Origin: Prevotella sp.
GTDB lineage: Bacteria; Bacteroidota; Bacteroidia; Bacteroidales; Bacteroidaceae
Direction of reading: 5' to 3'
Assembly: GCA_017410365.1 (NCBI GenBank)
Contig: JAFQQY010000017.1
Coordinates: 1 to 33,984, forward strand
Length of the DNA stretch: 33,984 nucleotides
Below, one piece after another: positions 4,315 through 32,840 of the stretch. The translations under genes were made by a program, and so were the position numbers. Under the pieces are notes generated by a model. The model made no database searches. It was not told the DNA's origin and saw nothing but the letters and a program-made list of their open reading frames with translations. Each line of letters opens with the position of its first letter. The stretch's first letter is position 1.

Positions 4315-5490
4315 TTAATTATTCGTTTCAGAATACTGCAACTGGTATATCTTCAATCCGAAATCAGGAGTTATGGCGTAAATACTATCCATAATGTCAG
4401 CCAGATTATGCTCATAGTTTACCCAGACCTTATCGGTAAGGAAGAAATAGAACTCAACAGGAAGACCCGCATTTGTGGCTTCCAACTGACGTACCATAAT
4501 TATCATCCCTGTGTTTACCTCTGCATTGGCTGCCAAAAAGCGTTCCATATATCGCCGATATAGGCTCATATTGACCATGCCTGGCTTTATCTCACCTGAT
4601 TTGAAATATCCCTTCTTTATCAGTAATTTGCAGTCAGATTCATTTAGAGTCCTGATTGTATTGAAATCATAATAAACCTTACGCTTCACGCGACGGCCGT
4701 CGCTTTCCTGCATTCCTCGCCAGTTCTGAAACGAATCGTCAACAAGCGTCTGAGGTGATATTGTCAATATTGTATTGTCCCAGTTGCGAACCTTCACCGT
4801 GGTCAGTGTTATCTCAGTTACAACACCGTCGATACCGGCTTTCGGAACAGTTATCCAATTGCCTTTGTGCAGCATATCGTTGCTAGTAAGACGTATTCCT
4901 GCCACCAATCCCTTAATAGTATCTTGAAACACCAACATAAGAATGGCTGAAGTAGCTCCCAAACCAGCTAACAGCACCGTCGGACTCTTGTCTATAACAA
5001 TTGCCATTACTACGATTATGCCAACAAAAACAGCCACAATCTTAAGTACTCCGCAAAAAGTATGTATATACTGACGCGTTGATGTGGTAACGCTATCATC
5101 AAGAATCTTGAAGGAATTTATCAGTGCCAGCACCGTCCTTACCGACATTACCGTTATGTATATCGCCGTAAGCCTGCCTAACAGCATCTCAATCGTCGGG
5201 AACCTATAGAAAATGGCTGGTAGAAACATCCACACAACAATAGCAGGAACAATCTGGCAGGCAGACACAAGTACCTTTCTGTTGAAGAACAAATCGTCCC
5301 ATTGGGAGAGCGTCTTGCTGGTTATCTTCAATATCAGCGGCACCACTATCCTACTGCAAACAAGTCCTAAACCAAATGCCAACACAAAGGCAAGAACAGC
5401 CAAAGTCAAATGGCTAAGTATGATTGACGTCTGTGATGCCAAGCCCCAATCTGCAAGTAAATGCTCTACATATATTGTCAATTTCTCCAT
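4315..5490 (-). CDS. MscS-family mechanosensitive channel (YbdG-like)
   Basis: This is an inner-membrane small-conductance mechanosensitive channel that releases solutes under osmotic downshock. About five hydrophobic segments fill the first 190 residues; the last contains the MscS-type pore helix, seen as GLGATSAILMLVFQDTIKGL. The beta domain follows, with GNWITVP, GVVTEI and WDNTILTISPQTLVDDSFQNW. The later GRRVKRKVYYD stretch and the C-terminal soluble domain are like E. coli YbdG, and the 391 residues are close to YbdG's length. The ATG start is 33 bases downstream of the PBP4-like gene stop on the same strand, so the two envelope genes are probably cotranscribed. Confidence 0.9.
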   Translation of the reverse strand: MEKLTIYVEHLLADWGLASQTSIILSHLTLAVLAFVLAFGLGLVCSRIVVPLILKITSKTLSQWDDLFFNRKVLVSACQIVPAIVVWMFLPAIFYRFPTIEMLLGRLTAIYITVMSVRTVLALINSFKILDDSVTTSTRQYIHTFCGVLKIVAVFVGIIVVMAIVIDKSPTVLLAGLGATSAILMLVFQDTIKGLVAGIRLTSNDMLHKGNWITVPKAGIDGVVTEITLTTVKVRNWDNTILTISPQTLVDDSFQNWRGMQESDGRRVKRKVYYDFNTIRTLNESDCKLLIKKGYFKSGEIKPGMVNMSLYRRYMERFLAANAEVNTGMIIMVRQLEATNAGLPVEFYFFLTDKVWVNYEHNLADIMDSIYAITPDFGLKIYQLQYSETNN

Positions 5491-8613: not shown

Positions 8614-11600
8614 CTATCTTGTAAGCGAGAACTTAAAGCTGAATCCGAAATCCTGTGTTGTCGTTGGATAGCTGCTACTTGAAAGCAACGGTGTATTGGT
8701 CTGGCGATCGTAATAAGCGCTAACAGTAAGCAAACGAGAGAGGGTGTAGTCTGCCATGAACGAGATTTTCAAAGCAGAGTTACCACTGCTTGCAGAACTT
8801 GTCATTGTGGCTATGTCACGAGTGATTGCAGCCTGGTTGCGATACGAAATGTCAAGACGCAAGTTCAAGTCATGGTTTACGCCAGAACGACCACGCGTAT
8901 TGGTAGATGACTGCTGGCTGTTGCTCTTACTTCCGCCTCGTTGAGCTTTCTTGATTTTGCGAGAAGAAGCATTGCTGAACAGTTGGAAGTTACTTATCTT
9001 ATATCCCAAACCTATCACCCAGTCTTTACTCAAGGCTTCGTTTATCTGTATGCTGGTCATGCTAAGATTAAGCACACGAGTCGTGCTATATTCCATCTTG
9101 CAAGTAAGGTTGTTGTTTAGAGTGAAATCAATACCGAGAAGTGGCGAGAAAGCTTCATTGATGCTCACTGTACTAACATTATACATGCTGTTAGGTATTG
9201 GATTACCTGTCTTGGTATCATTAATAAAGCCTAGACCGTTCATATATTCATGATAAGTGCTATAGCTGGCATAACTGCCCACTGCATATACACTCTTATA
9301 TGAGTGGTTAAGATTTACGCTCTTAAAATGATCGCGAAGCCATGGCAGTTTGCCCAGACCGCTATACTTTATGGTCCAGTTTGGCAACAATCGCTTGAGT
9401 GTCGGGAAAATATCAAGTGATGAACCAGCACCCGATGTATATGCAGAAAGGAATGCTGGTATAAGCACGTCTGCACTATACTTGTTTACAGTTCCCAGTT
9501 CAGGGTTATAGGCTGTACCGCCAAGATTAACTCCTTGAGCATCTCGCAAACCCTCTGGATAAGTTGTGTTTGCATATTGTGCTTGCACCTTATCACGGAA
9601 ACCATCGATAGACTGGCAGAATTCGTTAAACGAGTTAGAATGATAACCATTGTTCGCATCGCCCATTCCCTCTAATGCGCTCTTCAGACTGACTGTTGTC
9701 ATAGTGAATGTTCCGCTCTGTGTTGTCGGCATGCCTGAATACATATATTGTATGCTTCTTGCCTTATTGACTTTACGGCTGGCATTAAGGTCTATCTTCA
9801 AATCGCGTATCGGTTCAAGAGTCATGCGTATCTGAAGGTCCTCACTACTATTTGTTGTAGCTGGTGTAGCCACGCTATCGTTGCAAAGCAACCAATTGTT
9901 TTCATAGGCTTTGTTTAGATAGCTATCGTCAATGAAACCGAAAGCGAAATCAACTCCAGGCGACATCACTCCACCTGTGCGCTGACCGAAAGCATCGCCC
10001 ACATTAGGAATGAAGCCTGGAAGAGTCATTGAATACTGGTTGCGGTAAGAAATGCCTACACTACGCACCATCATGAGGAAGCGTGCCGCATGCTGTGCTG
10101 GACTATACCACCACTGCTTGTCAAGTGGTTCCTTTGGAGTAACGCTTATCTTTATCTTGACCGTATCTTGATTCTTGACAAGTATCTTGTTGTCATCAAC
10201 AACCTTGTATTTCAACTTATACGGCTTGCCATCGGCTGTCTTGGCAGATACAATAAGACGCTTGCTCTTCTTGCTGTGAGTTACAAGCACTGTGGTATCA
10301 GGCTTAAGAGTTATCTCTCGCTGATATGTATTCTTGTTCTTCGGCAGAACCTTCTTTTCCTTTTCTGCTGCCTTATCGTCTTTCGTTTCTTTCTTATCTT
10401 TTTCGTTAGCCTTTGTTCTTGAGTTAACCTTAGTCGGTTTCTTGGTTATACGTTGGTTGTTGCTCTTCTTGAAGCGTTCATTTGCCTTCTTCAGGAATGG
10501 GATATGATTATAGAGCGTCTCCATATTAAGCGTAGAGTTAATATTGAGATTACGATTTGTTGTAATAGTGTTGCCTAGCGAGGTTCCATTGTCAAGTTCG
10601 GTACCACGAACCCACGAATAGTTAGAGCTGTAGCTTGCATCTGCATTGAGCCAATCGAAAATAGGAAGTTTGTTCAGCGGCAGTTGATAAGACGCCGTAA
10701 ACGACTGCTGATAATCAAGCGGCGTACCGAGGTTACGGATACTATGAGATATAGAGTCTTTCCATACCTGATATTGGTCTGGATAAAGGTCCTTGTTAAC
10801 CGGAACGTATGGCTCTTCTATCTCCGCATGAGTTGCCGACTGGAAGTTCATGTGCAGATTCTTTGTAAAGTCCCAACGCATAGAGAACTCACGATTCCAT
10901 AGGAACTGCTCACTGAACGTAAGCGGCAACTGCGAGTTTTCCATACTTTCCATATCACGTTCTTGCAACTCATAGTAGTTGCGCATTATTTCACTATTGA
11001 ACGTGATGTTCTGTGGAAGATAGTTGAATCCGAGAGCCTTAGGGAAATTGAGCCATTTACTCTTACCCTTGAGTTTCTTAAATGGTTCAAATGTCTTATA
11101 TACAGGTGTATAGCTGTAGTTGAGTGAACCACGCCATTGGTCTTCTTTCTCATAGACAGTGGTCTCTCCGGAAGTGCGGCGGTGAGAATGACTGTAACTG
11201 AAAGAGAAGTTAGCAGGGTCGTATGGCATTGGATGACGCTTGGTCTTTATGCCTACTCGCACATTAGACAATGAGAAATTGGTATTTGTTGTCTTCGTTA
11301 CTGCTATCGACTCTACAGAGTCTCGCTCTTGTGATGTAAGCGCTTCCAATGCATCGTCCAATTCCATATCAGTATCCAACGGGTTATACTTTGGACGGGT
11401 CTCTTCTTTTGTTACTGAATAATAAAGTGGTGCAGACACCTTTGCCTTATCTGGGAAGAACTTACCCAATTCAAGATTTGCCGTAAAGCTGTATGTCTTA
11501 TAGTCGTCAGTGCTACGTTGAGCTATTCCATCTTCCAACCCGCCAAAGCCCTCGGTTATCATCTTGCCAGTAAGATTAACAGTTCCGAAATCAGACAATT

Positions 11601-14600
11601 GCATGTTCAAGGCTCCCGATGCAGCCCATCCACCGCTATTGTTGAACTCCAACAGACGCAGTTCATTAACCCACACCTCGCCCGACTTTGGAGAAGGGGA
11701 AATATTTCGCACACCGATTATCATGGTCTTAACCTCACCAAGCGATGGGTTACCCATGACACTTATCTTATTGCTTGGTTTGTCGGCATCATATTCTGAG
11801 AACAATGTATTGTATGATGCGCTGCCAGCTGCCTTAGACATGTTTCGGGCTTTCTTTATTGCTGTAAATACAGATAAGTCAATATCTACCATATTTTCCT
11901 CTGGCCAAACCATACGACAATCCTCACTAGAATACTTGTCGTACTGACCTTCTGGAGTCAGTTTCAGCGGTATTTCATATTCATAATAGTTGCTCTTGTA
12001 ATCACTACCAAGACGCACGAACACAGCCAACTGGTCATTCTGCAGATTTGTAGTGTTCTGCTTGAAGGCATTAGCATGAACGAACATCTGGAGGCGCTTG
12101 TATTGGCGCAAATCAAGAGTAGTATTCTTATATACCGCTTTTGCTTCACCCTTCGACAGATTCTTTACTGTCATGTTAAGAGCCTGCTCATTAGCCTCAA
12201 CTAACTGTGGCTGTGACGGGTCGGTAACACGGCTGATGCCTGGAGGCAGGACGTAGTTAACCGGTTGTTTGTCATTGTATTCCTCTATGTTCACAGCACT
12301 AACCTCAAGCGTTCCGCTATTGCTTGATGCCGTATTGCTAAGGTTCTGCTCATAAACACGCCACTCGCCACGTACAAGGTCTAGGCTACCAAAACGCAAG
12401 ACAATCGGTTTCTGGAAATCTGTAAGGAACATACGCATGAAGCGTATAGAAGTGAAATCGCTGATGGAACCAACCTTCTCCTTTTCACGTGCATTCACCG
12501 GTATGCGGAACTTATACCATTTCACGACTTCCGTATTTCCATTACGCAGACGCACGCTTGATTCACGGATGTCTGCAAGGTAGTTGTTGCCAACATTCTC
12601 CTCTCTCAAATCTTCTGGACGTATGCTCACTCTATACTGATAATAACGTTCATATTCATTAAGAGTATAGTCCTGGTTAATATCTTCCACATCCGGCATT
12701 GTCTTATAAGATGTGTCGTAACTCTCATTGTTGCCGTCACTATCAGGAGAGTTTCCCTGCGGGTTGTTAATACGCTTATAACGCTCAAGAATAGATGCCT
12801 TACGCTCATCTAATGCAGAACCACGGAAATACTGATAGTTGTCATTAGCAGGGTCAGCTGTCCAAGCATTACGCACACTATCGTTAGCAATAGTGCTAAC
12901 GAAACTGTTAAACTGCATATATTCAGGAAACTCTTTCTCCTCTGCATCAGTAAGACCATTAAGACCTACGTCCTGCTTTTCTCTAGAGCCAGATGTCGTA
13001 GCAAAAGCGTATGTCTGAGTAGCCTGCACCGGTATCTTACCCCACTGAGTGTTTGCAAAACTACTTGTTCCGTCTACAGGCATTCCACTCTCATAGAATT
13101 TCTTTCCGTCGCGAAGAATATCCTCGCTGACTTCACCAAGATTGATATAGAGGTCACCGCCGTATGAAGAAGCATCAGCTTGATTACGGGTATATATAAA
13201 TGGGTCAAGAAGCCAGAACTCTACATATTCTATATTAGCAGCCTCAAAGTCGTTGGTGTCTAGTTTTCGCATCATTCCACCCCACTTGGTTGCCGGGTTA
13301 CTGAGCGTTCCATCTGCATTCATCGTTGTTGTGAAATTGTATGGTCCGCGCTCAGTCGGATAGTATGCCAGATTGAGAATTGGCAAGGTAGAAGTGGCTC
13401 CATTGTATGTACTTTGGTCGCGATTAGGATAAAGTTCGCTGACATAAACCTCACGTACATAGTGGTTTGACAACTGTTCCAAATCGCTCTTAATGTGGCT
13501 TGGGGTCAGCGAACTGCTTCGATAAGTGAACAGCGGGTCAATGTTATACCATGCCAAAAGCGAACGGTTATAGCCACTTGACAATCCATCTTTGTCGCCA
13601 TGCTCAGGGAACATTGTCGGCACACTTGACAACACCCACTGTTTAGGTTCTGATATATCGAGTCCGTTCTTTGTATTTTCAAAGTCATCAATATACGAAG
13701 CGTCGTCTTGAGTACCGCCAGCCTGACCGGCTATGAGATGGGCGAACTCTCCTGTAAATGATATCTGCGAAGGCTGAGTACAATGCAAGAACGGTATGGC
13801 ATCGAGCATATTGGTCAGCCACTGGCTCTCTTTCTTGAAGTTCATATTCAGACCCCACAATATATTATTAAGCGGTTCTGAACCCATTGCCACCTTAGAT
13901 GTCTGCGCCTGTTCACTGAGATGCTGGAATGTACCTCCAATCTGGAAATCCTTAGTAAAGTCATACTCCCAGTTCAATCCCATCATCGTCTTGCGCATCT
14001 GACCATACTCCGTATTGCTCTCCAAACTAACGTTCACCGATGTTCCTGCATCGATAATGCTTTGATTGAGAATGGTAACCTCACCGGCTGAATAGTCGAC
14101 ACTATAATCAGATCCTTCCGTAAGAACCACACCGCCTGCAGTAACTACAACAGAACCCTGTGGTACATTATATGCCCCCAACGAGATAACATTTGCAGCA
14201 GTTCCTTTAAACTGTCCCATCAAGACGAACTTGTCTTTCTCTGCTATCTGCTTGGCTGCAGTCTTTGTCGTGTCGTAAAGTTCAGTAAATGCATATTTAT
14301 CGGCTGTATTTGCTGTAACACCAGCCCTTACAAGATAGTTTTTAAGATATGCTCCAAACGGTTCGGCAGCAGGGAAGAACACACGTCCGTTGCTTACTGT
14401 ATATCCTTCTACGAAGTCGAAATATCCGTTACTGTTTGGTTTGTTGTTATTGTCCAGGCGATCTGCGCCGAGCACCTTGATAAGGGTACGGTCTTTAACC
14501 TGTGGTTCTGGCAGATAAGTAAGATAAACGCCTGTCGTATCGCTTTGATACTTTACATCAAGTCTGAACTTTGTCTTTTCAACTGTAGATGCAAGATAGT

Positions 14601-16203
14601 AGACGTTCTTCATCATCAGTCGCCAGTTGCCCATCTGCGGACTGTTATTGGTATTCTTTAGCGACTTGACGAATATGGCCTCGTTTGTATTCGTATTGTC
14701 AGATGCAAACTCACCTACCTGATATGTCTGTCCGTTCAGAGTATACTCGTATGCCACAGCCAGAATCTGGTCTGTCTGCAATGTGGTTTTAAGTGAGATA
14801 TAACCCAATGCTGAATTTACCGTATATTCTGATGATGACAACAAGCGCGCGCTCTGTACCTTTTCATAATCAATACCGCCGGTAAAGCCGCTGATTGCAT
14901 CAAGTACGGTATTGGTCTGCTCTATATTACGTGCTGCAGCATATTCATTGACCATCGCATTATACTGCGAGTTGGCAGCATTGCTTGGTGCGACATCCCC
15001 AAGTCCACCCCACAAGTTGTTCTTTACATACTTGCCTTCACCCAAATCGGTAAGCGCCACCACATTACGTGTATTACTGGTATTGCCTGTCTTATTAGTC
15101 ACCCACACTTCCACGCGAGTAATCTTTACGCCAGTGGTAAGATTTGGCAGTGATGCCATGGCACGATCGTAGCGCTCACGGAAATAATGACTCAAAAAGA
15201 AGTGGCGGTTTTCCTCGTAGTCTGCTACGTCTATTTCAAATGGTGTAAACTGTGTGCCACCTCTTGATGATACACTCTTTGTTGTCGAATTCTTCTGCGA
15301 CAACACTGTTTGCAGTTTCAATCTACCGAATTGGAAGTCGGTACGTATACCAAACAACGAAGACGCTCCCTTGATTAGTGAAGAATTTGACGGGAATGTT
15401 ACATTACCAGCCTCAACCAATTTTATTATCTCGTCTTCCTTTCCTTCATATCGAAGCTTAATGTTTTTAGTATCCCAGTCAAAGGTAGCATCGGTGTTGT
15501 AGTTAAGGTTCATGTTCACCTTATCGCCAACTTTACCATTCAGATTGAGGTTTATCTTTTCATCAAAATCAAACGACTTAGTCTTTCTATTGCGGATTGG
15601 CAGCGACGGATTATCAACATCTTTTGTTGTCATACCGATACGCAGTTCTGCCGTTCCCTGTGTTTTTATTCGCACGCCGCCAGGACCGAAGATTTTCTCT
15701 GCTGGTCCAAGATCAAAATGCATATCAGAGAAAGAGAATTTTTCTTTTCCCTTACTTGCCACGTTTTCCGCATCCTTTTGTCTGAAGAACTGCTTCATCT
15801 GTCGGCGTTCACTCCATTTGTTATACTCTTCTGGAGTCATCAGAAGAGGGGCATTTAGATATGTATCTCCTATCTTCGAACCAACAAAATAGAGATTCAG
15901 CGAGTCATTGTATTCAGCACGCTGCAGAATGTTGTCAGGCATCTTCAAGTCAAGTGCAAAGGAATCTAGGTCGCTAATAAGCACTGGTGCAGTCTTCTTA
16001 ATCTTCCAACGTGGATTTAACAGAGAGTCTGGTATCACTTCCTCCTCAACCGACAACTTTGGTTGTGACTTAGGCTGTGGTTTGGGTGTCGCCTTTTTCT
16101 CCTCTGCTTCTTTCTGAGGTGCAGTAACAGGCGGTCTTTGCATTGCGGCAAATGCCACAATACCCACAAACATAAGCAATATGTATAATACCGTTCTTCT
16201 CAC
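8614..16203 (-). CDS. sprA: Cell-surface protein SprA/Sov, type IX secretion translocon
   Basis: This 2529-residue protein is a SprA (Flavobacterium) / Sov (Porphyromonas) homologue. SprA is the very large outer-membrane barrel through which type IX secretion cargo crosses; the family size is about 2400-2500 residues, so this copy is complete. The start is a GTG at 16203 followed by a signal peptide (MRRTVLYILLMFVGIVAFAA) and a short Lys/Pro/Gln-rich linker. FDLGPAEKIFGPGGVRIKTQG near residue 170 is like the conserved SprA N-terminal motif; many Asp/Asn/Thr-rich strand repeats follow; the C-terminus ends FKFSLTR, as expected for a beta strand of a barrel. A Lys-rich segment near residues 1900-1960 is unusual. 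The gene lies 108 bases downstream of ruvA, an order I recall from other Bacteroidetes. No other T9SS genes are in the window. Confidence 0.93.
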   Translation of the reverse strand: MRRTVLYILLMFVGIVAFAAMQRPPVTAPQKEAEEKKATPKPQPKSQPKLSVEEEVIPDSLLNPRWKIKKTAPVLISDLDSFALDLKMPDNILQRAEYNDSLNLYFVGSKIGDTYLNAPLLMTPEEYNKWSERRQMKQFFRQKDAENVASKGKEKFSFSDMHFDLGPAEKIFGPGGVRIKTQGTAELRIGMTTKDVDNPSLPIRNRKTKSFDFDEKINLNLNGKVGDKVNMNLNYNTDATFDWDTKNIKLRYEGKEDEIIKLVEAGNVTFPSNSSLIKGASSLFGIRTDFQFGRLKLQTVLSQKNSTTKSVSSRGGTQFTPFEIDVADYEENRHFFLSHYFRERYDRAMASLPNLTTGVKITRVEVWVTNKTGNTSNTRNVVALTDLGEGKYVKNNLWGGLGDVAPSNAANSQYNAMVNEYAAARNIEQTNTVLDAISGFTGGIDYEKVQSARLLSSSEYTVNSALGYISLKTTLQTDQILAVAYEYTLNGQTYQVGEFASDNTNTNEAIFVKSLKNTNNSPQMGNWRLMMKNVYYLASTVEKTKFRLDVKYQSDTTGVYLTYLPEPQVKDRTLIKVLGADRLDNNNKPNSNGYFDFVEGYTVSNGRVFFPAAEPFGAYLKNYLVRAGVTANTADKYAFTELYDTTKTAAKQIAEKDKFVLMGQFKGTAANVISLGAYNVPQGSVVVTAGGVVLTEGSDYSVDYSAGEVTILNQSIIDAGTSVNVSLESNTEYGQMRKTMMGLNWEYDFTKDFQIGGTFQHLSEQAQTSKVAMGSEPLNNILWGLNMNFKKESQWLTNMLDAIPFLHCTQPSQISFTGEFAHLIAGQAGGTQDDASYIDDFENTKNGLDISEPKQWVLSSVPTMFPEHGDKDGLSSGYNRSLLAWYNIDPLFTYRSSSLTPSHIKSDLEQLSNHYVREVYVSELYPNRDQSTYNGATSTLPILNLAYYPTERGPYNFTTTMNADGTLSNPATKWGGMMRKLDTNDFEAANIEYVEFWLLDPFIYTRNQADASSYGGDLYINLGEVSEDILRDGKKFYESGMPVDGTSSFANTQWGKIPVQATQTYAFATTSGSREKQDVGLNGLTDAEEKEFPEYMQFNSFVSTIANDSVRNAWTADPANDNYQYFRGSALDERKASILERYKRINNPQGNSPDSDGNNESYDTSYKTMPDVEDINQDYTLNEYERYYQYRVSIRPEDLREENVGNNYLADIRESSVRLRNGNTEVVKWYKFRIPVNAREKEKVGSISDFTSIRFMRMFLTDFQKPIVLRFGSLDLVRGEWRVYEQNLSNTASSNSGTLEVSAVNIEEYNDKQPVNYVLPPGISRVTDPSQPQLVEANEQALNMTVKNLSKGEAKAVYKNTTLDLRQYKRLQMFVHANAFKQNTTNLQNDQLAVFVRLGSDYKSNYYEYEIPLKLTPEGQYDKYSSEDCRMVWPEENMVDIDLSVFTAIKKARNMSKAAGSASYNTLFSEYDADKPSNKISVMGNPSLGEVKTMIIGVRNISPSPKSGEVWVNELRLLEFNNSGGWAASGALNMQLSDFGTVNLTGKMITEGFGGLEDGIAQRSTDDYKTYSFTANLELGKFFPDKAKVSAPLYYSVTKEETRPKYNPLDTDMELDDALEALTSQERDSVESIAVTKTTNTNFSLSNVRVGIKTKRHPMPYDPANFSFSYSHSHRRTSGETTVYEKEDQWRGSLNYSYTPVYKTFEPFKKLKGKSKWLNFPKALGFNYLPQNITFNSEIMRNYYELQERDMESMENSQLPLTFSEQFLWNREFSMRWDFTKNLHMNFQSATHAEIEEPYVPVNKDLYPDQYQVWKDSISHSIRNLGTPLDYQQSFTASYQLPLNKLPIFDWLNADASYSSNYSWVRGTELDNGTSLGNTITTNRNLNINSTLNMETLYNHIPFLKKANERFKKSNNQRITKKPTKVNSRTKANEKDKKETKDDKAAEKEKKVLPKNKNTYQREITLKPDTTVLVTHSKKSKRLIVSAKTADGKPYKLKYKVVDDNKILVKNQDTVKIKISVTPKEPLDKQWWYSPAQHAARFLMMVRSVGISYRNQYSMTLPGFIPNVGDAFGQRTGGVMSPGVDFAFGFIDDSYLNKAYENNWLLCNDSVATPATTNSSEDLQIRMTLEPIRDLKIDLNASRKVNKARSIQYMYSGMPTTQSGTFTMTTVSLKSALEGMGDANNGYHSNSFNEFCQSIDGFRDKVQAQYANTTYPEGLRDAQGVNLGGTAYNPELGTVNKYSADVLIPAFLSAYTSGAGSSLDIFPTLKRLLPNWTIKYSGLGKLPWLRDHFKSVNLNHSYKSVYAVGSYASYSTYHEYMNGLGFINDTKTGNPIPNSMYNVSTVSINEAFSPLLGIDFTLNNNLTCKMEYSTTRVLNLSMTSIQINEALSKDWVIGLGYKISNFQLFSNASSRKIKKAQRGGSKSNSQQSSTNTRGRSGVNHDLNLRLDISYRNQAAITRDIATMTSSASSGNSALKISFMADYTLSRLLTVSAYYDRQTNTPLLSSSSYPTTTQDFGFSFKFSLTR

Positions 16204-23112: not shown

Positions 23113-23113
23113 G

Positions 23114-23187
23114 TGATCCCGTTGGGATTCAAACCCAAGACCTTCAGAACCGGAATCTGACGCTCTATTCAGCTAAGCTACGGGACC
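23114..23187 (-). tRNA. tRNA-Arg (anticodon CCG)
   Basis: The reverse complement folds as a full cloverleaf: acceptor GGTCCCG with CGGGATC (one G-T pair), D arm with TAGCTTAGC, anticodon stem TCAGA/TCTGA with loop TTCCGGT, and T arm TTGGG TTTGAAT CCCAA. The central loop bases CCG read the Arg codon CGG. The discriminator is A at 23114, and CCA is not encoded. A TACCTTTG -7 element lies about 20 bases upstream and a hairpin follows. Confidence 0.96.
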
Positions 23188-26699: not shown

Positions 26700-27875
26700 T
26701 TATTCTCCTTTTGTTAATTCATTATATAGTGCCATTCCTTTCATTGTCAGCAGATACTTCTGCCGTGGATGCCGAGGAGAGTCGGGATAGAGCATTCGCA
26801 CATATCCTTCCTTCATGGCAGGATTCAGGTGATATTCCAAGAAATTCGGTCTGTGTTTCAATTCTAACAATTTCATCAATTGAGAAATTGAGACTGACTC
26901 ATTGCCAATCTTCTTGATGAGGTTATTAATCAATGTATTATTGGTGTGCAGTAAATCCTGTACTTGTTCGGGTACTTGTTCGGGTACTTGTTCGGGTACT
27001 TGTGGGATACTTGTAGAATCCGCAAGATTCGGCTGCACACTCCATTCTGCCGTTGGATGAATATGCAAATAGCGGTTACGCAAATCCCATTGCTCACCCA
27101 GCAGAAGGTTTCGGAAGAAACGTTCAAGATACTGCGGACTGTAATCAATGCCCTCCACAGCACTACGATAGTTTGCACGCACCAGAGCATTGCGGAAATA
27201 CCAAGAATGGTCTGCAAACATATCATTCTCTACCTTGAACCCAATATCACGCAAATATAAAATAGTAAACACCGCCGTTGTACGAGTGTTACCTTCACCA
27301 AAGGCATGTATCTGCCATATTCCAGAAACAAAGCGAGTGATATGAGCAATCAACTCGTCAGACGAAATGCTTTTATAACTAAAACTGCGTTCCTGTTCTA
27401 TATCGTGGTCCAATGCTCTGCGCAAGTCCTCCCAATTCAGATAATGCACTGTGTCATAGTTCAGCACCCATTCCTTCTTTGTGATATCATAGTCGCGCAC
27501 TTGTCCTGCATGCTTAAATACACCCTCAAAGATTCTCCGATGCAGAGCGATGTAGCCTTTTGTGCTGAAGTCCAATGCCTCAGAAGAAAGAATTTTGGTA
27601 ATGTTTGCAGATACTTTATCGGCTTCCTGCTTGTCATCATCGTCGGGTTCACGCTTCGTCTTCGACTGGTAATAGGTCTTTATCAGTTCCCGTGCCTCGT
27701 CAATGTCTATTTCCCCTTCGATATGTTTGCGAGCAGTCTCTTTCAGATAGTCTGATGTCTTCAAACCATCCACAGCTTGCAAGCCAATAGCCGTCCGCCA
27801 GATGGAAGCCTTTTCTTTCTTGTCAGGCTCACCCTGTCGGATGTACTCCTCAAAATCCAAATATCCTTCCTTCAT
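26700..27875 (-). CDS. Fic-domain protein with winged-helix C-terminus
   Basis: Fic enzymes transfer AMP, or other phosphate-containing groups, to protein targets. The 391 residues start with an IRQGEPDKKEKASIW segment, then ETARKHIEGEIDIDEARELI, loosely like VbhA-type antitoxin helices. The Fic core has HAFGEGNTRTTA at residues 190-201 in place of HxFx(D/E)GNGRxxR: the His, Glu, Gly-Asn and first Arg are kept, but Gly is Thr 197 and the last Arg is Ala 201. A VPEQ tandem repeat at about residues 291-305 links to a C-terminal winged-helix-like domain (ISQLMKLLELKHRPNF onward). It lies between a DUF4268-like fragment (15 bases) and hsdR (5 bases). Similar Fic genes are often seen in type I RM loci of gut bacteria. 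Target and activity are unknown. Confidence 0.9.
   Translation of the reverse strand: MKEGYLDFEEYIRQGEPDKKEKASIWRTAIGLQAVDGLKTSDYLKETARKHIEGEIDIDEARELIKTYYQSKTKREPDDDDKQEADKVSANITKILSSEALDFSTKGYIALHRRIFEGVFKHAGQVRDYDITKKEWVLNYDTVHYLNWEDLRRALDHDIEQERSFSYKSISSDELIAHITRFVSGIWQIHAFGEGNTRTTAVFTILYLRDIGFKVENDMFADHSWYFRNALVRANYRSAVEGIDYSPQYLERFFRNLLLGEQWDLRNRYLHIHPTAEWSVQPNLADSTSIPQVPEQVPEQVPEQVQDLLHTNNTLINNLIKKIGNESVSISQLMKLLELKHRPNFLEYHLNPAMKEGYVRMLYPDSPRHPRQKYLLTMKGMALYNELTKGE
26961..27007 (-). repeat. 12-bp tandem repeat inside fic encoding VPEQ
   Basis: Three perfect copies of TACTTGTTCGGG (+ strand) at 26961-26996 are followed by a decayed fourth copy. Each unit encodes V-P-E-Q, so gain or loss of units keeps the reading frame while changing the linker length. 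Confidence 0.92.
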
Positions 27876-27890
27876 GTTGTTTGTTTTTAT

Positions 27891-28043
27891 TTATTCGCCA
27901 AACAATTCCAACTCAATATCTATCGCATCACCCAGCAGCGTAAGATTCTCTTCCTGCGCAAACCACTTTGTGAAGTCATTTTCCTCATGAGGCCATACCG
28001 ACCTTAAATCGGTAATTCTTATCATCTTGCCTAATTTATCCAT
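27891..28043 (-). pseudogene. 50-residue fragment like the N-terminus of DUF4268 proteins
   Basis: A complete ATG-to-TAA frame encodes 50 residues beginning MDKLGKMIRITDLRSVWPHE and continuing DFTKWFAQEENLTLLGDAI. This matches the first 45 or so residues of DUF4268-domain proteins as I recall them (LGK, a D-L-R, W-x-HE, DF-x-x-W, EN-L-x-L-L). Those proteins normally run for hundreds of residues and include a nuclease-like domain; here the frame stops exactly where that would start and fic follows 15 bases later. No continuation in another frame is visible. It starts 10 bases after the upstream gene stop. It may be a decayed remnant or a small functional peptide gene; I lean to remnant. Confidence 0.65.
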
Positions 28044-28053
28044 AATGCCACAA

Positions 28054-28941
28054 TTATCTCTTTAGTTCATACTTATAATCTTCTTTCAATTCTTTTATTA
28101 GAGATTTTGTTGTTCTCTCCATATTCCTGTAATAGTGAAGTGGCAAGTAACTCTCTTTATTATTAATTGAGGAGTCACACAAAGCCCTTTCCTCACGATA
28201 TTCTTTCCACTTGTCAATGTAACTGAAATCATTATAATGGAACGGACCTTTATCTTGCTTTAATCTAAGAGTGTCTATTAACTCTTCGAGTTCTTTATCT
28301 GCTTTTTCGAATTCTTTTTGGGCAATTTTGATTTCTTCAATACCACTTAAATGGTCAGAATACAAAGTATTTCTGATAATATCATCCGAATCATCTATGA
28401 ACTCAATAGCATGAGAAATTAGTTTTCTTGCACTATCTATATCAATATTCTTTTTCAGAGGAACTTCATGACAATAAATATGCCTAAGCCTAAATATCTC
28501 AGAAACAGACTCTAATATTGCTTCTCCATTATCTTTCTTCCTAAATTCTGACAAGAAATTAATGCCAATTAGTTTTGATATGGCATTATCAATATCTTCT
28601 AATTTGCTACAAGGTATTAAAAGTGATAAATAATCACTTAATGAAATAGTATTCTCTTCAAAAGCCCCTATTACATCAAAATTAAACTTAGTGTCTTTAA
28701 ATAAGTCTATATTTTTCAGGTTCTTCTTTACTTTTGGATTTACAAGAATTTCCTGATACTCATCTCTGAATAATTGCTCAAAACAAGCTACAATTTTAAC
28801 AGGAACATACTCTAACAGTTGAGGATTATCCATTGTATAACATAATTCCCGCAAATCATAAAGCTCTATTTGAGCCTGGAAATTGGTTTTTCCTCGCTCT
28901 AATGATTCTGTTAATTCCGATAACTGTAACTGCTTTTTCAT
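28054..28941 (-). CDS. HEPN-like protein with RxxxxH motif in RM operon
   Basis: This 295-residue protein is of no family I can name with certainty. It is mainly helical and charged. EYVPVKIVACFEQLFRDEY near residue 50 followed by RHIYCHE at about 153-159 is the pattern of HEPN-domain proteins, whose RxxxxH motif forms the RNase site. The C-terminal part is strongly charged with Glu/Lys-rich helices (EKADKELEELIDTLR). It is notably AT-rich: 14 G+C in the 60 bases at 28681-28740. I start at the ATG at 28941, 23 bases after the hsdS stop; a TTG two codons upstream is less likely. Function is inferred as an RNA-targeting effector or partner; no toxin activity is shown. Confidence 0.75.
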   Translation of the reverse strand: MKKQLQLSELTESLERGKTNFQAQIELYDLRELCYTMDNPQLLEYVPVKIVACFEQLFRDEYQEILVNPKVKKNLKNIDLFKDTKFNFDVIGAFEENTISLSDYLSLLIPCSKLEDIDNAISKLIGINFLSEFRKKDNGEAILESVSEIFRLRHIYCHEVPLKKNIDIDSARKLISHAIEFIDDSDDIIRNTLYSDHLSGIEEIKIAQKEFEKADKELEELIDTLRLKQDKGPFHYNDFSYIDKWKEYREERALCDSSINNKESYLPLHYYRNMERTTKSLIKELKEDYKYELKR

Positions 28942-28964
28942 ATACAATATATTTTCATCGCATT

Positions 28965-30125
28965 TTATTGCCCCATCTTCGCCAAAAGCAAAGACTGAGA
29001 TTCGGTTAGTTTTTCGTTTTCTTGTATTTGTATGCTCACATGTGAAAAGATAGTATCTGTCTTGTTTGTAAAATCTTTAAGAATACCTTTTGGAGGTATC
29101 ATAATCTCAAATGATTCTATTTCAGATTTTGTGATAGCTTCTCTAGTTGATCCTGATTGGCTCATACCCAATAACGAACGTTTTGCATCTTTTGAGCACA
29201 ATACACAAAGGATGTAATACTGCATAAAATCCTCTTTAGAACGGATAATCATAACGTGCTGATTTACACGAGCAGGCAATACATCCTTAGGGACCATACA
29301 GCATCTTGCAACAGATGCTCCTGTAATATTAAATAGTATATCTTTCTCTATTACGGTAACGCCATCAAGTAATGCAGCTTGTTTATCGGATATATGAGCA
29401 AGTTCTTCGTAGCAGAAGTTCATATCGAAAACATTCATACTCCTTATGAGTGAAACACCAGTTTTCCCATAACCACCTTTTCCCCCTTTTGGTGTTGCCC
29501 CACTTCCTATCTTTGAACAAACTTCTCCCAACGTCCCCATTCTCCACCCTTCAGGAAGGTTTTCTTTGTCGATGTTATCGACGAAGGTTTTACGGTAGAG
29601 GGCTTGGGCGGTGGCTTCGAGGTGCTGAATCATTTGATTGTTGAGACGGATGCGGTTGGTCAGTGTTTCGTATTCTGCTACGATTTCCCGTTGGCGAGTG
29701 ATGGAGGGGATGGGAAGTTGTACATCACATAGTTCGTCCCAGTCGAATATCTCACGAGCACTTCCATGAGAATGGAAACGTGCATAACGGTCAAACTCTG
29801 GACGACGAAACCACATCATCAAATACTCTGGCAATAGTTGTTCGTGGTCAATAACCTCAAAAACAGTATATGCCTGAGAAACAATTGCATTATCATATTT
29901 ATCAAGTAAACCAATAGCTATTTTGTCACCACGTCGTGAAGTATCAGCGATATAAACTAACTGATTTCTTTCAACAACTTTATATGTAGACATATCCGTA
30001 CCAATGGTGTTAGCAATCGAAGACATAAATTCCTTCGATACGCTAAGCCCCAGCAAGTTCGTAACCTTCAACTCCCGATTACGAACATTCACCTCTCTGA
30101 TATAGTCGCCTAAACAGTTCTTCAT
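28965..30125 (-). CDS. hsdS: Type I restriction enzyme specificity subunit (HsdS)
   Basis: HsdS recognises the two halves of the target site and bridges the HsdM and HsdR subunits. The 386 residues hold two target-recognition domains: the first about residues 1-150 (ending FDWDELCDVQLPIPSITRQREIV), then a helical conserved region (EYETLTNRIRLNNQMIQHLE), and the second from LPEGWRMGTLGEVCSKIGSG to about 350, with a final helical repeat (SIQIQENEKLTESQSLLLAKMG). Both domains are complete, so the subunit looks intact. The central helical region is visibly richer in G+C than the flanking recognition domains. The target sequence cannot be predicted. The ATG overlaps the HEPN gene end by only a 1-base gap (TAA-T-ATG). 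Confidence 0.95.
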   Translation of the reverse strand: MKNCLGDYIREVNVRNRELKVTNLLGLSVSKEFMSSIANTIGTDMSTYKVVERNQLVYIADTSRRGDKIAIGLLDKYDNAIVSQAYTVFEVIDHEQLLPEYLMMWFRRPEFDRYARFHSHGSAREIFDWDELCDVQLPIPSITRQREIVAEYETLTNRIRLNNQMIQHLEATAQALYRKTFVDNIDKENLPEGWRMGTLGEVCSKIGSGATPKGGKGGYGKTGVSLIRSMNVFDMNFCYEELAHISDKQAALLDGVTVIEKDILFNITGASVARCCMVPKDVLPARVNQHVMIIRSKEDFMQYYILCVLCSKDAKRSLLGMSQSGSTREAITKSEIESFEIMIPPKGILKDFTNKTDTIFSHVSIQIQENEKLTESQSLLLAKMGQ

Positions 30126-30126
30126 A

Positions 30127-31098
30127 TTATTCCAATTTTACGGTAATCGTTTCAGTGATGGTATTTGCATTCGCCTTGATAAATTCCTGAATAGTCGATA
30201 ACAATATTGCAGTTGCTAATATCATTGGTTCACGCTGATCCATAAACCTGTCAAAATCTTCATCGGGACCATAAAAAGTATTCCAACTCTTTTGTATATT
30301 CGTACTTCCATGAACTAACAAAGAGCGCATACGATACATTTCATTAATTTGATTCTTCAGATATTTCTCTTTGCCTAATGGATATTCTCCCAATAACGCT
30401 TTTGTCTTGCGTCTCAATTGCTCTAAAATAGATTCTTCCTTATTGCTGCCATCATTATAGATTGCTTCTATTCCCAATAGTACATAAAAAATATATGTTT
30501 TTTCGTCGGCATCACTATATGATAATGCGTGTAACGCTCTATCAAGAGGTGTTTTACTAATATCAAAAAGAAAATTCGTTTTACTGAGAATCCACTCCCA
30601 ACAATCTTCGATAGACAATTCTTCTATTGAAGGCCATAGGCACAACTCGTCTGCTAATGAAAACAGGTCTGAGCTATACTTGAAATGACTACACACGGGG
30701 GCTCCATTACAATATATTGCACCACCATTTATATGTAATAAACTTGGATAAGCAAGATTTATTACAAAGCATAAATCCTTAATGCGGCCCTCGAAAACGC
30801 AATTATAGAAATCGCCATACGCTTTCGTGTAGATTTCCAAGGATATATAAATAGTCGTTTTTATGCTGATTATATCAACATCGTCATCTACACTAAATGT
30901 AAATGGATAGATTTTGTCATGTATGGGGACTTGTGGGTTAAAAGCAGTTAATTCATCGATAAATTCTTGTAATTCATCTTTTATTGCCTGATTTATGGTT
31001 CCGTCTTCTTTATGAATATAACACGCCCACTTCAATTTCGCTTCATAGTGTAGCGGAATTAGTTCTTCGTCTTTTATATCTTTATTAGACAATGTCAT
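30127..31098 (-). CDS. Apea-like HEPN protein in RM operon
   Basis: This 323-residue protein sits between hsdM and hsdS. The C-terminal half has the pattern of Apea-like HEPN proteins: FYVLLGIEAIYNDGSN, then KALLGEYPLG, then MYRMRSLLVHGST with RSLLVH at about residues 258-263 as the RxxxxH motif. The N-terminal half is an unrecognised alpha/beta region with no signal peptide or membrane segment. HEPN domains with intact RxxxxH are often metal-independent RNases in toxin and anti-phage systems, but many are uncharacterised. It begins 11 bases after the hsdM stop and ends 1 base before hsdS, so it is firmly part of the operon. Role inferred as an RNase effector or as a structural partner. Confidence 0.82.
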   Translation of the reverse strand: MTLSNKDIKDEELIPLHYEAKLKWACYIHKEDGTINQAIKDELQEFIDELTAFNPQVPIHDKIYPFTFSVDDDVDIISIKTTIYISLEIYTKAYGDFYNCVFEGRIKDLCFVINLAYPSLLHINGGAIYCNGAPVCSHFKYSSDLFSLADELCLWPSIEELSIEDCWEWILSKTNFLFDISKTPLDRALHALSYSDADEKTYIFYVLLGIEAIYNDGSNKEESILEQLRRKTKALLGEYPLGKEKYLKNQINEMYRMRSLLVHGSTNIQKSWNTFYGPDEDFDRFMDQREPMILATAILLSTIQEFIKANANTITETITVKLE

Positions 31099-31109
31099 AG
31101 TACCAACTA

Positions 31110-32672
31110 TTAAAGGTTATATCCTAACTTCTCAAAGAGGTCTTTCAACTGCTGTTTGCTCTCTTCTTCCTGCTGCAAGAGGTCGCGCATTTCGGTTTGC
31201 AATTGCTTCATCTTGGCGTCGAAGTCTATCTGCTCGTCACGGTTGCGGAACTCGATGTATTTGCTGGGTACGAGGCTCCAGCCTTTCTTCTCTATCTCGT
31301 CGAGAGTAGCTGAATAGCAATATTCGGGTTCGTTGTGATAGGTCTGTTCGTAACCCACACGCTGCCAGTTGTGGAAGTTCTCGGCTATCTGCTGTATCTG
31401 CTCCGCTGAGAACTGGATGTATTTCTTCTCGAACGGCTCTCCCCACTGGCGAAGGTCGATGAACAGCACCTCGTTCTCGCGATTGCGATAACGAATCATC
31501 TTGCCGTTCTGCTCAACCATTCGGGCTTTCTTGTTGTTATTCAAAATCCAAAGCGTCACGCTGATATCCGTAGAATAGAACATATTTCGTGGAAGAATAA
31601 CAATCGCCTCCACCAAATGGTTTTGAAGCAGTTGCTTGCGGATGGCCAACTCCGTGCCGTCGCCACTCAAAGCGCCATTGGCAAGTAGGAATCCTGCCGT
31701 GCCATTGGCAGAGAGTTTACTTACAATATTAAGAATCCAACCATAGTTGGCATTGCTTGTTGGCGGAACATCGTAACCCATCCAACGAGCATCATCCACC
31801 AACTCATTATCTGCCCGCCATGCCTTTTGGTTGAAAGGAGGATTTGCCATGATGAAGTCTGCCTTCAGATCCTTATGCTGGTCGTTATGGAAGGTATCAG
31901 CAGCCATCTCGCCGAGATTACAGGCAATACCGCGAATGGCGAGGTTCATCTTTGCCAGCTTATAGGTGGTATTGGTGTATTCCTGACCATAGACAGAAAT
32001 ATCGCGCTTGTTACCGTGATGTGCCTCGATGAACTTCATACTTTGAACAAACATACCGCCAGAACCACAACAAGGGTCATATATCTTACCACGATAAGGT
32101 TCAATCATCTCGGCAATAAGGTTGACGATGGTCTTAGGCGTATAGTATTCACCTTTACCCTTACCCTCGGCAATGGCAAATTTGCCGAGAAAATACTCAT
32201 AAACACGTCCAATAAGATCGTTTTCCGGGTCCTTCAGCGTGTCTATCTTGTTTATTTCGTCGAGCAATGCCGAAAGTTTAGTCCTGTCTAACGATAGTCC
32301 TGCATAATAATTGCTTGGCAGGGCGCCCTTCAAGGTAGCATTGCTCTGTTCTACTTTCGCCAAAGCCTTGTCTATCTTGATTGCAATATCGTTCTGCTTG
32401 GCATTTTCAATAAGATAATCCCAACGGCTTTCTGGCTCAAGATAAAAGACGTTCTTAGCGTTATAAAACACGGGATTATCTGCAAAAGCTTCCTTACCTT
32501 CTGCTACCAACTCCTTGCGTCGCTCTGCAAAGCGGTCGTTGGCATATTTTAAGAAAATAAGACTTAGCACCACATGTTTATACTCCGATGGTTCCACAGA
32601 GCCACGCAGTTTGTTAGCCGATTCCCAAAGAGTCTCTTCAATAGACTTTTCCTTTATCTGTTTCTTTGCCAT
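31110..32672 (-). CDS. hsdM: Type I DNA methyltransferase (HsdM)
   Basis: HsdM is the adenine methyltransferase subunit of a type I RM complex; with HsdS it protects host sites. From the ATG at 32672 it has 520 residues. The N-terminal helical domain (LWESANKLRGSVEPSEYKHVVL) is followed by the catalytic core: EYYTPKTIVNLIAEM, SAM-binding motif I DPCCGSGGM at about 199-207, and the catalytic NPPF at about 277-280. The last 40 residues form the usual coiled region (MKQLQTEMRDLLQQEEESKQQLKDL, split here for length) that contacts HsdS. An upstream TTG at 32741 is rejected because a TAACTTTG -7 element lies at 32708-32715, between it and the ATG. It is the first gene of the operon. Confidence 0.96.
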   Translation of the reverse strand: MAKKQIKEKSIEETLWESANKLRGSVEPSEYKHVVLSLIFLKYANDRFAERRKELVAEGKEAFADNPVFYNAKNVFYLEPESRWDYLIENAKQNDIAIKIDKALAKVEQSNATLKGALPSNYYAGLSLDRTKLSALLDEINKIDTLKDPENDLIGRVYEYFLGKFAIAEGKGKGEYYTPKTIVNLIAEMIEPYRGKIYDPCCGSGGMFVQSMKFIEAHHGNKRDISVYGQEYTNTTYKLAKMNLAIRGIACNLGEMAADTFHNDQHKDLKADFIMANPPFNQKAWRADNELVDDARWMGYDVPPTSNANYGWILNIVSKLSANGTAGFLLANGALSGDGTELAIRKQLLQNHLVEAIVILPRNMFYSTDISVTLWILNNNKKARMVEQNGKMIRYRNRENEVLFIDLRQWGEPFEKKYIQFSAEQIQQIAENFHNWQRVGYEQTYHNEPEYCYSATLDEIEKKGWSLVPSKYIEFRNRDEQIDFDAKMKQLQTEMRDLLQQEEESKQQLKDLFEKLGYNL

Positions 32673-32707: not shown

Positions 32708-32715
32708 CAAAGTTA
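32708..32715 (-). promoter_or_regulatory. Bacteroidetes -7 element for the hsd operon
   Basis: The - strand reads TAACTTTG, a TAnnTTTG match, 35 bases upstream of the hsdM ATG. No other such element is seen between the genes down to hsdR, consistent with a single transcript. Confidence 0.65.
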
Positions 32716-32840
32716 CTAATTCTTTCGCAAATAAACATCAAAAGAACTTATTTTTGATTTCTTTTGTCGCATAAAAAACATCTTGCAGAAGACAATCGTC
32801 TTCTAACTTTCATTTGTTTCTCCATTTCAAATCTTTTTAC

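Follow-up and report, generated by a model that had tools for sequence, protein, structure and literature searches.

Genes lying within the hsd loci of Campylobacter jejuni are said to have been described by Miller in 2005 as rlo and mlo genes. In papers on these loci, rlo denotes genes between hsdR and hsdS and mlo those between hsdS and hsdM, with content that varies among strains (PMC5183652), and rlo genes in hsd loci are also described in PMC2928727 and PMC2610378. The model for control of an embedded gene product by the Hsd complex is PrrC (PMC3874165, PMC3710099), in which an N-terminal ABC ATPase is joined to a HEPN nuclease (PMC3710099). A survey of HEPN proteins places several HEPN families in restriction-modification (RM) operons, proposes Hsd control for such genes, and reports PrrC and RloC genes alongside genes for RhuM-like or Fic/Doc-like toxins (PMC3710099). 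The TgvAB genes are GmrSD-type genes embedded in the type I RM operon of Vibrio VPI-2 and provide phage protection that is independent of HsdR (PMC11411939). Finally, the PDC families are cited as guilt-by-embedding candidates (PMC12988326, PMC11411939).

Here, we describe an ordinary type I RM operon in a 33,984-nt stretch of DNA from a gut Prevotella sp. (contig JAFQQY010000017.1; hereafter, the window) in which genes for two proteins, termed A and B, and a fic gene lie among hsdM, hsdS, and hsdR. We think it likely that this operon has two slots of exchangeable defense cargo of a known (rlo/mlo) type and that A, B, Fic, and Hsd need not be obligate partners. No account of this gene set, or of the scars described below, was found in open-access papers, a collection that lacks many journals.

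A type I RM operon and its embedded genes

The operon runs in one direction, in the order hsdM, A, hsdS, B, DUF4268 fragment, fic, hsdR, with intergenic gaps of 11, 1, 23, 10, 15, and 5 nt (Table 1). A one-direction cluster from hsdM to hsdR with gaps of 1 to 23 nt had been predicted and was confirmed, with every gene present on the minus strand; all of these genes are real, but the predicted span of 26700 to 32672 left hsdR outside. By Pfam, HsdM, HsdS, and HsdR occur with their domains in one operon, as defines the type I RM genes, and the operon is a genuine, functional-looking one. The close spacing suggests that the cargo is cotranscribed with hsd. The original prediction had also noted one visible promoter. 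A motif is present 5' of hsdM, matched with a consensus that we take to be Bacteroides style, but it is a weak candidate: the window holds 4 such motifs against 1.43 expected, a count reached by 3 of 100 shuffles. For B, the ATG at 28941 agrees with its relatives; the ORF list had given TTG at 28947. In the surroundings, a tRNA-Arg (CCG) gene at 23113 to 23187 follows the hsdR stop at a distance of 93 nt, and the gene flanking the operon upstream has matches outside its own genome of only 27 to 29% identity (60 genomes). An ORF of 2,529 amino acids at 8614 to 16203 presumably resembles SprA-type secretion/gliding proteins.

TABLE 1 Features of the operon in the window
Feature	Position	Strand	Evidence or remarks
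hsdM, type I DNA methyltransferase subunit, 520 aa	31110-32672 (ATG 32672)	-	Pfam N6_Mtase 4e-98, HsdM_N 8e-22
Protein A, 323 aa, HEPN-like candidate, hsdM-hsdS slot	30127-31098	-	R258-x4-H263 conserved
hsdS, specificity subunit, 386 aa, two Methylase_S stretches	28965-30125	-	Pfam Methylase_S 9e-17
Protein B, 295 aa, RiboL-PSP-HEPN kind	28054-28941	-	R153-x4-H158 invariant
DUF4268 gene 5' remnant (scar), ORF of 50 codons	27891-28043	-	Homology spans 28043-27906
fic, 391 aa	26700-27875	-	N-terminal VbhA-like stretch, Fic core (HAFGEGNTR), C-terminal Fic-like_C
hsdR, restriction subunit, 1137 aa	23281-26694	-	Pfam HSDR_N, SWI2_SNF2, T1R_D3-like, T1RH-like_C
Possible Bacteroidetes-type promoter (TTTG N23 TAACTTTG), 5' of hsdM	32708-32742	-	Motif match, weak

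Both A and B had been called HEPN-like, on the strength of RSLLVH in A (R258 to H263) and RHIYCH in B (R153 to H158), and both motifs are present. By a rough estimate rather than a computed one, chance alone will often place a single R-x4-H in a 300-residue protein; what counts is its conservation across the A and B sequences. For B, R153 and H158 are invariant in an alignment of all five sequences (B and its relatives). When B and its relatives in loci L012, L017, and L010 were scanned with PF18735 (RiboL-PSP-HEPN), L012 (36.4 bits) and L017 (31.8 bits) scored above the 28.4-bit cutoff, while B itself (E = 0.0073, 16.7 bits) and L010 (14.6 bits) fell below it. The predicted structure of B (pLDDT of 75) placed HEPN structures at the top in VIA-align; with Foldseek, the best E value was 0.83; the HEPN likeness comes from the second look with VIA-align. 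Full-length B gave weak, seemingly unrelated matches in Pfam, PADLOC, and NCBIfam, matched no PADLOC model, and had weak unnamed matches in PHROGs (best E = 0.0015, residues 198 to 225). Two viral VP5 matches, from a search of the sequences of solved structures, were dismissed as chance. With two relatives above the Pfam cutoff, an invariant R-x4-H, and a model resembling HEPN structures, B is very probably a HEPN protein, as had been proposed. Judging from its family, B is probably an RNase that would cut RNA in the infected cell.

The same claim is not established for A. R258 and H263 are kept in its sole relative (45% identical, one among 398 genomes of the genus), a comparison of two sequences only, but A matched no HEPN or other family in Pfam, PADLOC, or NCBIfam, and its predicted structure (pLDDT of 43) was unusable. 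A search of the solved-structure sequences returned nothing, and PHROGs gave weak unnamed matches (E of 0.069 or worse). When A's own genome was searched with PF18739 for ApeA-type HEPN proteins, there was no match at E ≤ 10; compared with two ApeA-type proteins, A reached probabilities of 0.1 to 0.3, against 0.1 to 0.5 for unrelated controls, with two-row profiles too thin to tell. A search of 395 genomes from the phylum recovered A's own copy alone. A weak match in G113, among 149 genomes of mixed relatives, was dropped (29% identity, four internal stops); none of the window's operon genes had a match in its neighborhood. A is a possible second HEPN protein and a candidate new family.

The Fic enzyme was borne out: Pfam identified the Fic domain (4e-10; 40.7 bits against a cutoff of 24) and Fic-like_C (3e-21), and the N terminus matched VbhA at 0.0054, below the Pfam cutoff. 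Fic proteins carry a motif of the form HxFx(D/E)GNxR, which the core stretch in Table 1 follows, and HxFxxGNxR was present in 57 of the 59 loci inspected whose fic ORF exceeds 300 aa. The product corresponds to PADLOC PDC-S72 (7e-128); PDC-S72 and PDC-S11 are reportedly guilt-by-embedding candidates of Payne (2024) in PADLOC. Fic probably AMPylates a target and would be restrained by its own N terminus.

The embedded genes and their operon in other genomes

If A, B, and Fic worked as partners of Hsd, their homologs might be expected beside hsd genes elsewhere, as the original prediction implied. The one relative of A follows a kinase-LRR protein (PADLOC STK_OB, 1e-48) and precedes PD-Lambda-3_A-like and YhcG proteins, with no hsd-labeled gene in its neighborhood (0 of 1). 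Relatives of B numbered three among the 398 genus genomes, two of them behind type III restriction genes; a fourth came from another genome collection; none was found in the 149 mixed relatives. As far as the loci were read, an hsd operon surrounds none of the four. Three (L011, L012, and L017) follow a type III res gene and are close kin: at this stretch, L011 matches L012 at 99.0% DNA identity over 8,574 nt and L017 matches L012 at 87.4% over 4,289 nt. The remaining one (L010) lies between a DUF2971 gene and an AlbA_2 gene, with no RM gene among its scanned neighbors. B and its relatives place RiboL-PSP-HEPN proteins next to restriction genes of type I as well as type III, and the relatives of A and B sit in other loci, mostly with defense-type neighbors; none was found in viral contigs, plasmids, or phages. 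Fic-family matches occurred in 180 of the 398 genus genomes, many of them partial, and an hsd-labeled gene lay within two ORFs of fic in 10 of 60 inspected loci (60 of the 62 best, some stopping at contig ends), where labels were assigned by blastp with the hsd proteins of the window as references and may miss distant hsd genes. No Fic relatives were found in viral contigs with single-sequence patterns.

A HEPN protein such as B inside the operon, with three relatives behind type III restriction genes, is also what would be seen if B, and perhaps A, were an RNase bound and silenced by Hsd and freed when a phage blocks restriction, in the manner of PrrC. Many effectors could plug into such a guard, hence the swappable cargo, and PrrC itself, together with an explicit prediction for RM-linked HEPN proteins in PMC3710099 and PMC3874165, provides a precedent. 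PrrC-like control of the cargo by Hsd is possible, yet we consider it unlikely to be the explanation: A and B lack the ABC ATPase part of PrrC, the L010 relative has no RM gene among its scanned neighbors, the relative of A adjoins a kinase, and TgvAB shows that embedded genes can act without HsdR (PMC11411939). Against the exchangeable-cargo reading that we prefer, the three type III-linked relatives of B, out of four, could point to a functional link with restriction enzymes more broadly.

That preferred reading draws on the same hsd lineage in other genomes. Of the 398 genomes, 18 others encode an HsdM 86 to 96% identical to that of the window, and neither A nor B was found in the parts of these loci that were readable. 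No two of the 11 complete operons (the window's and 10 others) had the same gene set in the hsdS-hsdR slot, although AAA and RloB genes recur in three and fic in three. The contents are AIPR; Mrr; a 23S-IVP-like gene (L144); a GmrSD pair (L147); AlbA_2 with a VbhA-like ORF; AAA and RloB with a VbhA-like ORF; DUF4268, AAA, and RloB; two other genes followed by DUF4268, AAA, and RloB; a GIY-YIG-like gene and fic (L077); fic and YhcG; and, in the window, B and fic, where the Pfam names 23S-IVP in L144 and GIY-YIG in L077 fall below the curated cutoff. Incomplete loci (L139, L140, L141, L143, L148, L149, L150, L153, and L154) are outside this count; some lineage genomes are themselves incomplete, with hsdR in pieces in L145 and an internal stop in hsdM of L151. 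The hsdM-hsdS slot, read in 13 other loci (L140, L141, and L143 included), contained a RhuM-Fic cluster in 8 (one by Pfam scan and seven by clustering with it), a metallophosphatase in 1, a reversed Fic gene in 1, and nothing in 3. Among 40 operons from hsd families further removed, ORFs of ≥100 aa occupied 24 of the 37 hsdM-hsdS slots that could be read and 20 of 34 such hsdS-hsdR slots; ten scanned slot proteins comprised YhcG (2), Fic (3), 23S-IVP-like (2), and OLD-like ATPase (1) proteins and 2 with no match.

The two gaps would therefore be slots for interchangeable defense-type cargo, with A in the first and B and fic in the second, and this cargo would protect against phages. HsdM proteins so alike, combined with different cargo in 11 complete operons, form a natural (allelic) series, which lets one ask if effectors embedded in this way need the restriction complex, like PrrC, or share only its promoter, like TgvAB. 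The exact set hsdM-A-hsdS-B-fic-hsdR was met in no other genome searched, in keeping with its description as unfamiliar.

Two further kinds of locus were seen. L158 (G106) carries a PF18739 match and, at 622 to 1926, a 434-aa ORF directly before a DNA methyltransferase-like ORF, and we take it as another HEPN-restriction neighborhood. The hsd operons of L172, L175, L176, and L178 have several partial hsdS genes with a 297-aa ORF between them, labeled Fic by blastp alone.

Scars of replaced genes

The predicted DUF4268 fragment is real, but only the first ~47 codons are retained and the domain itself (residues 173 to 303 of the full gene in L146) is missing. Over 138 nt (141 in L146), the 50-codon ORF is 94 to 95% identical in DNA to the start of the full DUF4268 gene of L141, L142, L143, and L146, with homology beginning at the start codon, and it matches positions 1 to 47 of the 318 in the PADLOC PDC-S11 profile. 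By this sequence match, the ORF is the scar of a former DUF4268 gene, which argues that the operon was assembled by replacement. In the window, the DUF4268 gene was probably there first and was mostly replaced by fic, its start being left before that gene.

This scar also bears on the layered HEPN and Fic system, tied to this Hsd, that had been proposed. Tight spacing and common direction would suit a dedicated HsdMSR-HEPN-HEPN-Fic system evolved as one unit, yet the set recurs in no other genome searched, the hsdS-hsdR slot differs throughout the lineage, with other cargo in the 10 other complete operons, and the DUF4268 scar speaks for replacement. Given also the counts for A, B, and Fic above, the proposal is not supported, and we regard such a unit as very improbable.

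Three of the other 10 complete operons carry a copy of the hsdR 5' end, placed 5' of the next cargo gene. These copies span 88 nt in L057 (94% identical to the window's hsdR and 99% to its own), 61 nt in L142 (90% and 95%), and 138 nt in L147 (72% and 77%, with in-frame stops); from its translation, the L142 piece reads like a fusion to the start of an AlbA_2-type gene. A 166-nt copy (79%) occurs in L152, with an HsdM at 67%, and in L146, 40 nt of the hsdS end are repeated after a cargo gene. From the 5' scars we infer replacement by recombination of the kind called homology-facilitated illegitimate recombination: new cargo would enter beside hsdR by homologous recombination in hsdR and non-homologous recombination inside the resident gene that comes next, with 5' remnants left behind. 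The scars would thus show how embedded cargo genes get replaced. This picture may be special to this hsd lineage, as copies of the hsdR 5' end were absent from all 35 operons of other families in which they could be sought (40 loci from more distant HsdM matches minus 5 without a full hsdR).

A tentative possibility is that this lineage is a recurrent cargo-exchange platform, with the start of hsdR (plus that of the preceding gene) as a repeated landing point leaving one-sided 5' scars; the operon would then express one effector set after another, and some effectors, B for instance, could be read out by unrelated type I and type III restriction complexes.

Short copies of the hsdM 3' end beside cargo in the hsdM-hsdS slot of L198 (~5218 to 5330, operon orientation) are perhaps a mirror image of the hsdR scars. 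ORFs matching Fic residues 2 to 74 lie directly after hsdS in L145 (5650 to 6003) and L156 (2991 to 3260; both operon orientation). They were dropped as scars because free-standing ORFs of ~114 codons with this match occur in several genomes (e.g., G000 contig C12, 6816 to 7034); the two may be VbhA-like genes, and such free-standing ORFs are possible solitary Fic antitoxins.

Comparison with described systems

Like PrrC in the EcoprrI operon, B is encoded within a type I hsd operon; unlike PrrC, A and B have no ABC ATPase domain by Pfam, and two candidate HEPN genes occur here with Fic. B resembles RiboL-PSP-HEPN proteins (PF18735) in its kept R-x4-H and in two relatives that pass the cutoff, but it scores below that cutoff itself, has an extra helical C-terminal region, and is located in an RM operon. 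The operon shares with TgvAB the placement of defense genes within a type I operon, and GmrSD genes occupy the hsdS-hsdR slot of L147; the enzymes in the window are others, and TgvAB is laboratory tested. With the PADLOC PDC families the locus shares its PDC-S72 Fic and the start of PDC-S11, which is broken here, and A and B match no PADLOC model. As with the rlo and mlo genes, ORFs occupy the hsdM-hsdS and hsdS-hsdR gaps here, and related operons contain RloB and AAA-type genes, but the slots are filled by A, B, and a PDC-S72 Fic, and the scars of replaced genes are visible.
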